Positions 5,081 through 7,889 are shown, counted from the stretch's first letter. The stretch is DNA of 7,889 nt from Candidatus Rokuibacteriota bacterium (GCA_016188625.1 JACPHL010000110.1:1-7889); one strand, 5' to 3'. Notes: generated from the sequence alone by a model not told the origin. Numbers and translations are program-made.

Positions 5081-5653
5081 CTACGCCCCTCGGGCTTCGA
5101 GCCGCGCCAGCTCGGCCAGGAGCCGCTCGTGGACGCCGGGGCCGGCCACCGCCTCCTCCACTGCCTCGAAGGCGTGGAGGAGCCCGCGCTGCTCGGTCTC
5201 CGGGAGGAGCTGCTCGGCCATGGGGAAGAGGACGCCGTTCTCCTTCTCGATGTGGGCCCGGAGGAGCGCGACGTATCCGCGGATGGCCTCGGCGACCTGC
5301 CGGTCCTCCCCCTGCGCCATGGCGCGGACGAGCGCCCGGCCCTCCTCGTGCTCCCGGAGCATCACCCCCAGCGGCCCCCCCTCCCGCGGCATACCGTGCC
5401 GCTCCAGGGCCGGGAAGAGGTGCTGCTCCTCCTTGCCGTGGTGGCAGCGGTCGGCGAAGGTGCCGAAGAAGGTCCGGAGCCACGCCAGCCCGTCGCGATC
5501 CACGGCCTCGCCGGCCTCCAGCGCCCGGCCGAACCGCTCCAGGAGCGCCAGGGCCCTCAGGATCACCTCGTGCTCCTCACGGAGCCTGGCGGTCGGGGTG
5601 GTCGCCGTGTGATGCGAGTGGGCGGCCTGGGTGAGCGGGATTTGCGTCTTCAT
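5081..5653 (-). CDS. Hemerythrin HHE-domain protein
   Basis: This 190-residue cytoplasmic four-helix-bundle protein is likely to carry a non-heme di-iron site that binds O2, NO or peroxide. After a His-rich start (AAHSHHT, 10-16) the hemerythrin domain runs from about 24 to 165. Candidate ligands are His28 (REEH), His72, Glu76 and His78 in CHHGKEEQHLFP, His102 (REHEEGR), and His134 with Glu138 in HIEKENGVLFP. The tail is acidic and helical. I chose the ATG at 5653 because AAGGAGGA lies four bases upstream; the longer frame to 5857 runs through promoter DNA and the oxidase-gene remnant. An FNR-like inverted repeat lies 66 bases upstream of the start. Neighbouring Crp/Fnr, Rrf2 and oxidase-like genes fit a role in oxygen, nitric oxide or iron-related stress. 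The exact ligand is not determined. Confidence 0.93.
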   Translation of the reverse strand: MKTQIPLTQAAHSHHTATTPTARLREEHEVILRALALLERFGRALEAGEAVDRDGLAWLRTFFGTFADRCHHGKEEQHLFPALERHGMPREGGPLGVMLREHEEGRALVRAMAQGEDRQVAEAIRGYVALLRAHIEKENGVLFPMAEQLLPETEQRGLLHAFEAVEEAVAGPGVHERLLAELARLEARGA

Positions 5654-5718
5654 GGTCTCCTCCTTGGCGATGGGTTCGATCCTCGCCCCCAGTGTCGCCC
5701 CTGAGGAGACCCGCCAGA

Positions 5719-5734
5719 TATGATCCCGGTCATA
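5719..5734 (-). promoter_or_regulatory. FNR/CRP-like inverted repeat upstream of hemerythrin
   Basis: TATGATCCCGGTCATA contains ATGA-x6-TCAT with the TGA...TCA core spaced as in FNR/DNR boxes (TTGAT-x4-ATCAA); only the outer base of each half differs from FNR. It is 66 bases upstream of the hemerythrin start. A GACACT hexamer at 5696-5691 is at about the right distance for a -10 element if the site acts from near -41. The partial Crp/Fnr gene at the window end is a natural candidate regulator. Confidence 0.5.
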
Positions 5735-5805
5735 AGGGTCTAGCGGGGCCGCCGACGGCCGGAGCGCTCGAGCCGCACGGGCGGGCCCGGGTCCGACGGC
5801 GACCG

Positions 5806-5878
5806 GCGAAGCCCGGTCAGGGCTCCCGGAGGGTCGAGGGGGCTCGGACCCCACCAACGCCTGCCCGGGGCCGCCCCG
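5806..5878 (-). pseudogene. Remnant copy of the oxidase-like gene 3' end
   Basis: Positions 5811-5850 match 7261-7300 at 37 of 40 bases, and 5849-5868 match 7330-7349 at 17 of 20. The 31 bases in between are absent here. The matched part covers the last codons (VRAPSTLREP and stop) and the sequence just past the stop of the oxidase-like gene. The missing 31 bases break the frame, so this is a decayed fragment rather than a gene. It is in the same orientation as the intact copy, and the two flank the Rrf2 and BFN genes. Confidence 0.7.
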
Positions 5879-5941
5879 GTCCTTCGGCTCATAAGCCGGG
5901 GTGGACCGATCCTTTCACCCGTCGGGGTCGCCCTAACGCAC

Positions 5942-5962
5942 CTGGTGTGAGACCCACACCAG
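5942..5962. repeat. 8-5-8 inverted repeat, CTGGTGTG / CACACCAG
   Basis: Perfect arms CTGGTGTG (5942-5949) and CACACCAG (5955-5962) are separated by AGACC. It could be an operator or a transcript hairpin about 90 bases past the BFN stop. No T run follows on either strand, which argues against a simple terminator. No regulator is recognised for it. Confidence 0.45.
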
Positions 5963-6003
5963 TACTCGAGCTCGTCGGCACCACCCCGGCATCAGGCGGG
6001 AGA

Positions 6004-6031
6004 GGTGGACATCGGCATGCCCATCTCCACC
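6004..6031. repeat. Composite palindrome around GGCATGCC
   Basis: GGTGGA (6004-6009) and TCCACC (6026-6031) flank a central perfect palindrome GGCATGCC (6014-6021), all sharing one centre. The two arms are separated from the core on each side by the same unpaired CATC. As RNA it would be an interrupted hairpin 20 bases beyond the BFN stop; as DNA it could be a protein site. Confidence 0.4.
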
Positions 6032-6051
6032 CCTTCCGTAGACGAAGCGCC

Positions 6052-6516
6052 TTAGAAATCTTCCGGCTTCACCCGCTCAAGCCACTCCCTTAAGTCAGCA
6101 GGGGCGGATGGCGGCGCATCATCGGGGGAGAGAGGCTCTGCATGCGCGAGGGCACCTGCCGTGGCGTAGATGGGGACTCTGGCCCTGAGCGCAAGGGCGA
6201 GGGCGTCGGGCGGATAGCAGGGAAGGGCGATCTCCAGCCCTTCACGTTCCAGACAGACAACGGCCCGAATGGACCGTAACCCGGCGTCGTCGAGCACGAC
6301 GTGAGTGATCGTAGCCCGAAGGGCACGCAGGAGGGCGTGAACAAAGTCGTAGACGGGATTGCAGGAGCACCGGGCGCGCCCCATCTCCCTCGCGAGCCGC
6401 TCGGCCTCGTGAGGATCCGTGCAGAATTTCAGCCGGAACCGGTGCTCCACATCCTCCAGCACGATCAGGGTTCGCTCGTGGGAGCGGCTCAGTTCCATCA
6501 CGCTCATCAGGACCAC
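6052..6516 (-). CDS. Divergent bifunctional-nuclease (BFN/DUF151) domain protein
   Basis: This is a 154-residue protein of the BFN/DUF151 family, described in the literature as having DNase/RNase activity in some members. The domain starts at MELSRSHERTLIVLED (about 7-22). The family core appears as VVLDDAGLRSIRAVVCLE (73-90) and ALPCYPPDALALALRARVPIYA (97-118). The C-terminus LREWLERVKPEDF is typical. The usual ARPSDA segment is PCYPPDA here, and five cysteines (32, 50, 52, 88, 100) include a CSC pair, so activity may differ. I favour GTG at 6516 because GGAGGG lies seven bases upstream; ATGs at 6507 and 6498 are alternatives. It begins 23 bases after the Rrf2 stop, so both are probably one transcript under the promoter at 7140-7168. 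Confidence 0.82.
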   Translation of the reverse strand: MVLMSVMELSRSHERTLIVLEDVEHRFRLKFCTDPHEAERLAREMGRARCSCNPVYDFVHALLRALRATITHVVLDDAGLRSIRAVVCLEREGLEIALPCYPPDALALALRARVPIYATAGALAHAEPLSPDDAPPSAPADLREWLERVKPEDF

Positions 6517-6539
6517 CGAGGAACCCTCCGCGATAGCTC

Positions 6540-7019
6540 TTATCGGGGCGTCCCGGGGTATCGATCGGCGGGGAGTCCCAGACCGGCTGGATGGACCGGG
6601 GCCGGGGCCTCCTGAGAAGCACGGATGAGATCGGCAAGGGTCACCGTGTCCAGGCTCGCGATGACCTTCCGGTGGACCGCCCGCATGGCCTCGATGATGG
6701 CGCAGACCGAGAGGCGGGGACAGTGGCCGATCTCGGGCTCGACGCACTCGACGAGCCGCACCGGGTCATCCATGGCGCGGAAGACATCGGTAAAGGTGAT
6801 CTCCGCCGGCTTCCGCGTCAGACAGTACCCCCCGTAAGGACCCTGCTTGGATTCGACGAGGCCAGCGCGCGAGAGCTTCTGGAGGATCTTGGCCAGGAAG
6901 TCGTACGGCATGCTGAGCAGGGTGGCAAGGTCGTCGCAGGAGATCACGCGACCTCGCTCTTGACCGCTGAGAAAAACGAGGACCACGAAGGCGTAGTCGC
7001 ACTCCCGCGTCAGGCGCAT
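6540..7019 (-). CDS. Rrf2-family transcriptional regulator, three-cysteine type
   Basis: This 159-residue Rrf2-type regulator has a canonical start MRLTRECDYAFVVLVFL, a winged helix (about 10-75, with the wing GPYGGYCLTRKP) and a dimer helix. Cysteines 92, 100 and 106 form C-x7-C-x5-C, two bases-of-spacing away from the NsrR/IscR pattern; no CxxH follows, unlike the other Rrf2 protein in the window. An Fe-S cluster is likely, with NO, O2 or redox as plausible signals given the hemerythrin, Crp/Fnr and oxidase-like neighbours. The C-terminal ~25 residues are Pro/Ala-rich and probably disordered. The ATG has no clear ribosome site and abuts an inverted repeat. A strong promoter lies about 120 bases upstream. 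Confidence 0.92.
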   Translation of the reverse strand: MRLTRECDYAFVVLVFLSGQERGRVISCDDLATLLSMPYDFLAKILQKLSRAGLVESKQGPYGGYCLTRKPAEITFTDVFRAMDDPVRLVECVEPEIGHCPRLSVCAIIEAMRAVHRKVIASLDTVTLADLIRASQEAPAPVHPAGLGLPADRYPGTPR

Positions 7020-7035
7020 GATCGGGGTCCCGATC
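7020..7035 (-). repeat. Inverted repeat touching the Rrf2 start codon
   Basis: GATCGGGGTCCCGATC has 7-base arms GATCGGG and CCCGATC around GT and ends one base before the ATG on the minus strand. It could be an autoregulatory operator or, in the mRNA, a small hairpin that hides the start region, where no Shine-Dalgarno sequence is seen. Confidence 0.45.
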
Positions 7036-7139
7036 GAACTAACCAGGCCAGGGGGGGAACCTCATCGATCCATCCAACCGGCCAGCATCGGAGGGGAGGT
7101 GCCGCGCACCAGGACTTCCTTGGATGACGGCCATATCCA

Positions 7140-7168
7140 TGCATAGTCGAGTTCGTGCGGGGTGTCAA
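7140..7168 (-). promoter_or_regulatory. Sigma70-type promoter for Rrf2-BFN unit
   Basis: On the minus strand TTGACA (7168-7163) is followed by exactly 17 bases and then TATGCA (7145-7140). This is a perfect -35 and a good -10 with ideal spacing. Initiation would fall near 7133, giving a leader of about 114 bases to the Rrf2 start. Confidence 0.75.
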
Positions 7169-7171
7169 CCG

Positions 7172-7186
7172 ATTTGTGTCACAAAT
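7172..7186. promoter_or_regulatory. Perfect 7-1-7 palindrome next to the -35 box
   Basis: ATTTGTGTCACAAAT is a perfect palindrome with one central base, AT-rich in a GC-rich setting, three bases upstream of the -35 TTGACA. The location suits an activator or a repressor of the Rrf2-BFN promoter. It carries TTTGTG half-sites, not the TGA core of FNR boxes. The cognate protein is unknown; the Rrf2 protein itself or the Crp/Fnr protein are candidates. Confidence 0.65.
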
Positions 7187-7266
7187 AGGATCGTTTTTGT
7201 CCGATTAGTTCCCGCCAGAGTTTCCGGCGGAGTCCGATCCGGCGAGAGTCGGGCGGCGAGGCCCGA

Positions 7267-7704
7267 TCAGGGCTCCCGAAGGGTCGAGGGGGCGCGGACC
7301 CGGACCCACATGTTATAGACGAAGAGGAACCCCGCCAGCGCCTGCCCGAGCCCGCCCGCGGCGATGAGGACCCGGAGGCCCCGCCCCGGCTGCCAGGCGG
7401 CCAGGATCTCGGCGGCGAAGCGGAGGGCGGTGGCGAGGGTGAGGATCCAGTAGATCCCCTCGGCGAGCCCGGCGCGATAGCGCGCGTCCCCCTGGGCCGG
7501 CCGGGGGAACATCCAGGTGGCCACACCGATGATCAGCATGAGGACGAACCCGACGAGGAGCGCGTGGACGTGGGCGACGATGAGGAGGAGCGGGACGGTG
7601 CGGCCGAGGAGGTTCTGGTTGACCGTGAGGACGGCCCCCATGAGGAGCCCCAGCAGCAGGAAGACGAAGGCGGTCTTGACGTAGCGCCGGACCAGGGGCG
7701 GCAT
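7267..7704 (-). CDS. Small four-helix membrane protein, heme-copper oxidase subunit I-like
   Basis: This 145-residue integral membrane protein has four predicted helices (about 11-31, 38-66, 82-103 and 110-133). Helix 2 reads AHVHALLVGFVLMLIIGVATWMFP and resembles a His-bearing helix of cbb3/NorB-type oxidase subunit I, with His45 and His47 as possible heme ligands. It is far too short for a catalytic subunit, which needs twelve helices and more histidines for copper. A single-heme or purely structural/sensory role is therefore more likely. The ATG at 7704 follows the Crp/Fnr stop by 13 bases with a modest GGGACGG ribosome site, so the two form an operon. A decayed copy of its 3' end lies upstream of the hemerythrin gene. 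The family assignment rests on helix 2. Confidence 0.7.
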   Translation of the reverse strand: MPPLVRRYVKTAFVFLLLGLLMGAVLTVNQNLLGRTVPLLLIVAHVHALLVGFVLMLIIGVATWMFPRPAQGDARYRAGLAEGIYWILTLATALRFAAEILAAWQPGRGLRVLIAAGGLGQALAGFLFVYNMWVRVRAPSTLREP

Positions 7705-7717
7705 GGCGCCGTCCCGC

Positions 7718-7889
7718 TCAGGGCTCGGCCGAGCCGTCCCCGGCCAGGGCCCGGAGCGCCGGGAGGTCCCGCAGGAGGAGGTGCCCCTCCTCGTCGGCGA
7801 TGAGGCCCTCCCGCCCCCAGCGGCCGAGGACCCGGATGGTCGTCTCCACCGTGGTCCCAGCCAGCTCGGCCAGATTCTGGCGGGTCAAC
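7718..7889 (-). CDS. Crp/Fnr-family regulator, C-terminal part
   Basis: Only the last 56 residues are in the window; the start is beyond its end. They form the Crp-type helix-turn-helix: LTRQNLAELAGTTVETTI, then RVLGRWGREGLIADEEGHL and a terminal helix. The recognition helix carries Glu-x-x-x-Arg (VETTIR), as in FNR and CRP, where those residues read the G and A of TGA half-sites. The position of FNR's Ser212 is Ile here, so the outer half-site base may differ from FNR. The ligand-binding domain is not visible, so O2, NO, heme or cyclic-nucleotide sensing cannot be told apart. It is directly upstream of the oxidase-like gene and probably co-transcribed. Confidence 0.9.
   Translation of the reverse strand, partial: LTRQNLAELAGTTVETTIRVLGRWGREGLIADEEGHLLLRDLPALRALAGDGSAEP

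Follow-up and report, generated by a model that had tools for sequence, protein, structure and literature searches.

The exact molecular function of the BFN/DUF151 domain was described as unknown in a 2020 paper (PMC7249048). In TM0160, Thr57, His58 and Asp115 have been proposed to form a catalytic triad, and the DUF151 protein Rv1829/Cor has been tied to CO resistance. In Azoarcus, the benzoyl-CoA genes are activated by the FNR/CRP-type regulator AcpR when oxygen is lacking, and the enzyme of this pathway that is sensitive to oxygen is benzoyl-CoA reductase (PMC6678401). An association of DUF2249, hemerythrin and oxidase-like proteins has been described in work on denitrification (PMC11218638, PMC6282519).

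The window, the whole stretch of 7,889 nucleotides analysed here, is the entire contig C234 of a Rokubacteriales MAG (84.5% complete). Read along the minus strand, it carries the C-terminus of a Crp/Fnr regulator, a small oxidase-like membrane protein (hereafter OX), an Rrf2-family repressor, a BFN protein and a hemerythrin-like protein (hereafter HEM), all five of which are present. Beyond HEM lie genes for an acyl-CoA dehydrogenase, a 3-hydroxyacyl-CoA dehydrogenase/enoyl-CoA hydratase, another enoyl-CoA hydratase, a PAS-LuxR regulator and a second Rrf2-family protein. The last of these (67‒483), at the opposite contig end, also has three conserved Cys residues. The fused 3-hydroxyacyl-CoA dehydrogenase/enoyl-CoA hydratase ORF (2174‒3796) is seemingly out of frame in its last part (from ~2380), and its ECH match ends at profile position 163 of 251, reflecting a real frameshift or a sequence error. 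Searches of the window for a tRNA, an Rfam family or the sigma-70 consensus gave no match. With moderate confidence, we consider the locus a composite that joins two separately conserved pieces rather than a single conserved module: a Crp/Fnr-OX-hemerythrin redox set, and an inserted Rrf2, responsive to an Fe-S cluster or iron, that controls a metal-binding, probably non-nuclease BFN protein.

The most interesting part of the locus is the cysteine-bearing BFN branch (hereafter Cys-BFN) and its Rrf2 partner. Cys-BFN (~6052‒6516, minus strand) is a divergent BFN/DUF151 protein that matches PF02577 with 41.9 bits against a cut-off of 27 bits. Its cysteines are C44, C46 and C94 in the numbering from the ATG at 6498, and a GTG at 6516 is preceded by GGAGG. 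The AlphaFold model, of moderate quality (pLDDT 75), retains the BFN fold, matching TM0160 (1sj5/1vjl) with an E-value of 7e-7 and a TM-score of ~0.67. The proposed nuclease triad is not retained: the positions of Thr57 and His58 are hydrophobic or Tyr in Cys-BFN, while Asp115 is kept, and both RP motifs are also replaced. All 13 Cys-BFN members possess a C-x-C pair plus a Cys ahead of [YH]xxDA[LI]ALA. Since the Thr and His are lost and three cysteines are gained, we predict that Cys-BFN binds a metal or an Fe-S species and does not act as a nuclease. Standard BFN occurs in nearly all of the 60 genomes of the order; Cys-BFN is found in six of the 60 and in seven genomes of a single genus that belongs to a neighbouring family of the class, with scores clearly separated. 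No related BFN was present in the plasmid collection. A scan of the contig collection returned four Rokubacteria only, using patterns that would miss the Methylomirabilis forms.

The partner gene (6540‒7019, minus strand) encodes an Rrf2-family repressor (PF02082, 120.9 bits) that scores 111.7 bits against the 73.3-bit cut-off of the superfamily model TIGR00738 and contains the three cluster cysteines, arranged as C92-X7-C100-X5-C106, together with Asp8. It is assigned neither to NsrR (65.8 against an equivalog cut-off of 182 bits) nor to RirA (79.8 against 193 bits). Because Asp8 is present as in the NO sensor NsrR, this Rrf2 may be read as responding to NO. An NO reading of the locus is possible. 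Close orthologs in the phylum were found only in this genome (G000) and in G025, each directly beside Cys-BFN.

The wider neighbourhood of Cys-BFN points to iron, and 10 of the 13 members lie near iron-uptake-type genes. FTR1 is located within ~7 kb of Cys-BFN in G046, G047 and G009, that is, in all three Cys-BFN genomes having FTR1, and no standard BFN was seen on an FTR1 contig when contig names were compared by eye. The 10 loci carry varied combinations of genes for P19-type Iron_transport and ferritin-like proteins, Fur-family regulators, ABC transporters and multicopper oxidases. The substrate of the ABC transporter is uncertain, two of its subunits best matching 2-aminoethylphosphonate models below cut-off; the clade with FbpABC-like transporters seems to be Methylomirabilis. 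The other three members (this genome, G019 and G025) lie near an Rrf2 gene, a different one in G019, and ~0.3‒7.5 kb from PAS-LuxR. In G025, the Rrf2-BFN pair is flanked by TetR-BcrC-BcrB-like genes and PAS-LuxR. The three mutually closest Cys-BFN genes, including that of the window, have no iron transporters directly beside them. Depending on the lineage, the branch is thus associated with either iron-uptake-type genes or an Fe-S-type repressor, and its place among iron-uptake genes elsewhere provides a testable clue to its function. We tentatively propose that, in the Cys-BFN branch of Methylomirabilota, a metal or Fe-S site has taken the place of the proposed nuclease site, and that these proteins, in three genomes encoded near an Rrf2 repressor and the redox set that accompanies O2-sensitive degradation of aromatics, function in iron/redox control.

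The Rrf2-BFN pair differs from its surroundings in composition. GC content is 60‒66% across ~5880‒7250, against 72‒74% for OX and HEM, and third-position GC is 0.74 for BFN and 0.82 for Rrf2, against 0.95‒0.97. The pair is flanked on one side by OX and on the HEM side by a partial and decayed repeat of the OX 3′ end (5804‒5876, minus strand, upstream of HEM), from which ~31 bases are missing; the OX 3′ end itself (7254‒7357, minus strand) and this copy align as two direct repeats, D1 at 92% over 48 bases and D2 at 86% over 29 bases. In the simplest reading, Rrf2-BFN was inserted between OX and HEM, and the OX end was duplicated in the process. A probable promoter of the pair, TTGACA-N17-TATGCA, lies at 7140‒7168 on the minus strand (first base 7168), and this region includes a 41-base block conserved with G025 at 27 of 41 bases, a level reached in 2 of 1000 shuffles. 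Just upstream of the promoter is a perfect palindrome, ATTTGTGTCACAAAT (7172‒7186), a candidate operator that does not exceed chance expectation in this region. It was not seen in G025 and was rejected as an Rrf2 operator common to both genomes. A perfect 7+2+7 inverted repeat, GATCGGGGTCCCGATC, is found at 7020‒7035, immediately ahead of the Rrf2 start codon.

A low-GC insert with a decayed flanking repeat, from a subfamily linked to iron, would also be expected if the position of Rrf2-BFN between OX and HEM were accidental and the pair served as an iron-homeostasis cassette only, functionally unrelated to its neighbours. We regard this as somewhat unlikely: PAS-LuxR is no more than ~7.5 kb away from each of the three closest Cys-BFN genes, and Cys-BFN of G025 adjoins bcr-like genes.

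The composite reading that we prefer assigns the remaining genes to a redox set. The Crp/Fnr-family regulator (~7719‒7889, minus strand) is represented by its C-terminal 57 residues (translation LTRQNLAELAGTTVETTIR...), truncated by the contig end, and a full-length homologue matches the cNMP_binding and HTH_Crp_2 domains. OX was searched for in 119 relatives, and 20 loci were inspected; a Crp gene adjoins or lies near OX in 12 of these 20. No Crp/Fnr-type site was detected in the search upstream of the Crp-OX operons. OX (7267‒7704, minus strand) is a membrane protein of 145 aa that resembles part of heme-copper oxidase subunit I. Its matches are weak: 24.4 bits to COX1, under the 34.8-bit cut-off, and 24.2 bits to ccoN, far under the cut-off of 583, so that it does not classify as subunit I or ccoN. 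Its H45-x-H47 motif is invariant, with both His residues in all 19 aligned proteins covering the region. Among relatives, DUF2249 genes and a COX1-like gene are found beside OX. One such COX1-like gene, of 434 aa (L090:4831-6135), lies near OX and DUF2249 in several genomes. In four genomes (L076, L077, L078 and L092), a weakly matching BFN-family gene is located ~2.7 kb from OX on the opposite strand, within a common block with MFS, AAA and peptidase genes.

HEM (5081‒5653, minus strand) is a 190-aa hemerythrin-like protein (PF01814, 81.7 bits against a cut-off of 25.3). It was rejected as a RIC/YtfE iron-sulfur repair protein (TIGR03652, 26.6 against 204.7 bits). Upstream of HEM is a Crp/Fnr-type candidate operator, TTATGACCGGGATCATA (~5717‒5735, minus strand), which has good comparative support. 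Its core TGAN6TCA is found within 200 bp ahead of 13 of 24 HEM homologues, against 0.57 expected and a maximum of 3 in 500 simulations; homologues in the more distant loci are ~42‒54% identical, so that some may not be orthologs. In the 2.6-Mb assembly of this genome, the exact form ATGAYNNNNRTCATA is present at one location only, and the C-variant of the site at none. The sequence-only reading had noted operator-like sites between the genes. This holds for the TGAN6TCA site; the inverted repeats are mostly at chance level, the probability of at least one arm of 8 or more being 0.17 upstream of HEM and that of at least one arm of 7 or more being 0.125 upstream of Rrf2. The 8+5+8 inverted repeat CTGGTGTGAGACCCACACCAG (5942‒5962), between BFN and HEM, falls within the former chance (~0.17), and intergenic inverted repeats by themselves were rejected as operators.

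The PAS-LuxR regulator (540‒1328, minus strand) lies outside the five-gene set and co-occurs with HEM and OX. It is linked to bcr-like genes in many Rokubacteria. The distributions of OX, HEM and PAS-LuxR are mutually correlated (p ~9e-7 to 3e-8), and these three co-occur with HGD-D genes in the 60 genomes of the order (p 8e-6 to 4e-10), the strongest pairs being HGD-D/HEM (p = 4e-10) and OX/HEM and PAS/HEM (p = 3e-8), although these Fisher p-values overstate independence because the genomes are related. Several of the co-occurring genes are also linked on contigs. For the HGD-D genes, the best matches are BcrC and BcrB of benzoyl-CoA reductase, at 290‒322 bits and thus below the cut-offs of 421‒487, and G003 possesses two activase-type ATPases. 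In this genome, the bcr-like genes are on a different contig, C127, and the benzoyl-CoA link is one of co-occurrence. Given the co-occurrence, and partial linkage, of HEM, OX and PAS-LuxR with benzoyl-CoA reductase-like genes, an anaerobic aromatics pathway sensitive to O2 is the probable setting, and AcpR in Azoarcus provides a precedent for a Crp/Fnr-type regulator near a benzoyl-CoA pathway.

The five genes had first been read as one NO/O2 response module, with conservation of the neighbourhood named beforehand as its refuting test. On this test the five-gene set fails: with 119 relatives searched for OX and 20 loci inspected, the order is seen in this genome alone. OX and HEM are adjacent in G025, and Rrf2 and BFN are adjacent there too, but on a separate contig, so that Rrf2-BFN is missing between OX and HEM. 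The two flanking genes also share a contig, 6‒22 kb apart, in G009, G058, G036 and G024. What stands of that first reading is the gene content, the common minus strand and a plausible redox/gas context, in which OX, HEM and Crp repeatedly occur as neighbours and DUF2249 genes join them in relatives. The reading as a single unit is not supported, Rrf2-BFN differing in composition and having its own promoter-like block. The wider surroundings of BFN indicate iron and not NO; a connection between BFN and gas toxicity has a precedent in Rv1829/Cor.

A single NO/O2 response operon, with BFN as a nuclease or RNA regulator within it, accordingly seems unlikely to us. The common strand, the three Cys residues and Asp8 of Rrf2 as in NsrR, the association of hemerythrin and DUF2249 with denitrification and the tie of Rv1829/Cor to CO resistance would all favour it, but it is opposed by a gene order confined to this genome, by the separate promoter block and composition, and by the distribution of BFN, which is not shared with PAS-LuxR (p = 0.67) and tracks HEM without strength (Fisher p = 0.07). 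That the join is an assembly artefact is very improbable: one short contig, an incomplete MAG (84%) and the composition shift are compatible with it, but both flanks, OX and HEM, are already neighbours in G025, which makes a random chimera unlikely.

In the composite that we favour, Crp/Fnr, OX and hemerythrin would form a redox set of Rokubacteria that co-occurs with PAS-LuxR and benzoyl-CoA reductase-like genes. The probable role of this set is to sense or buffer O2 (or NO) for an anaerobic aromatics pathway sensitive to O2. The Crp/Fnr-type protein would act at the putative TGAN6TCATA site ahead of hemerythrin. Rrf2 and Cys-BFN would represent a cassette of two genes, distinct in composition and with a promoter of its own, that was inserted between OX and hemerythrin. 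For Rrf2, the prediction is that its three Cys residues and Asp8 ligate an Fe-S cluster and that it represses its own promoter, releasing it upon cluster loss caused by low iron, O2 or NO. Cys-BFN under its control, with the BFN fold kept, may bind a metal or an Fe-S species and function in iron handling, not as a nuclease. In this reading, the computed results comprise the gene identities, the partial synteny, the repeat, the composition, the operator enrichment, the residue changes and the linkage to iron genes, whereas the history of insertion, the binding of metal, the ligand sensed and the direction of regulation are inferred from them. BFN/DUF151 proteins are widespread, and the three-Cys branch provides a concrete test of whether the fold can form a metal or redox module. 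It would further hint at the way in which Rokubacteria protect an aromatics pathway that is sensitive to O2.

Compared with the described BFN/DUF151 proteins (TM0160, Arabidopsis BBD1/2 and M. tuberculosis Rv1829/Cor), Cys-BFN shares the Pfam domain, the predicted fold and the triad Asp. It differs from them in the changed Thr, His and RP motifs, in the gain of three conserved cysteines and in its linkage to iron genes or Rrf2. The window Rrf2 has the Rrf2 fold and three cluster cysteines in common with NsrR, RirA and IscR, and Asp8 in common with NsrR of S. coelicolor. However, its cysteine spacing is C-X7-C-X5-C in place of the C-X5-C-X5-C of ScNsrR, its score for each of the three equivalogs is far under the cut-off, and its neighbour is a BFN gene. 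As in the AcpR system, the genome region that contains the Crp/Fnr-type regulator is associated with a benzoyl-CoA pathway sensitive to O2; AcpR acts on the benzoyl-CoA genes, whereas the candidate site here precedes hemerythrin instead. The DUF2249/hemerythrin/heme-copper-oxidase-related sets of denitrifiers, such as those with the Thermus Drp proteins, have like associations in relatives of the window, but the window itself has no DUF2249 and its setting is linked to bcr-like genes.
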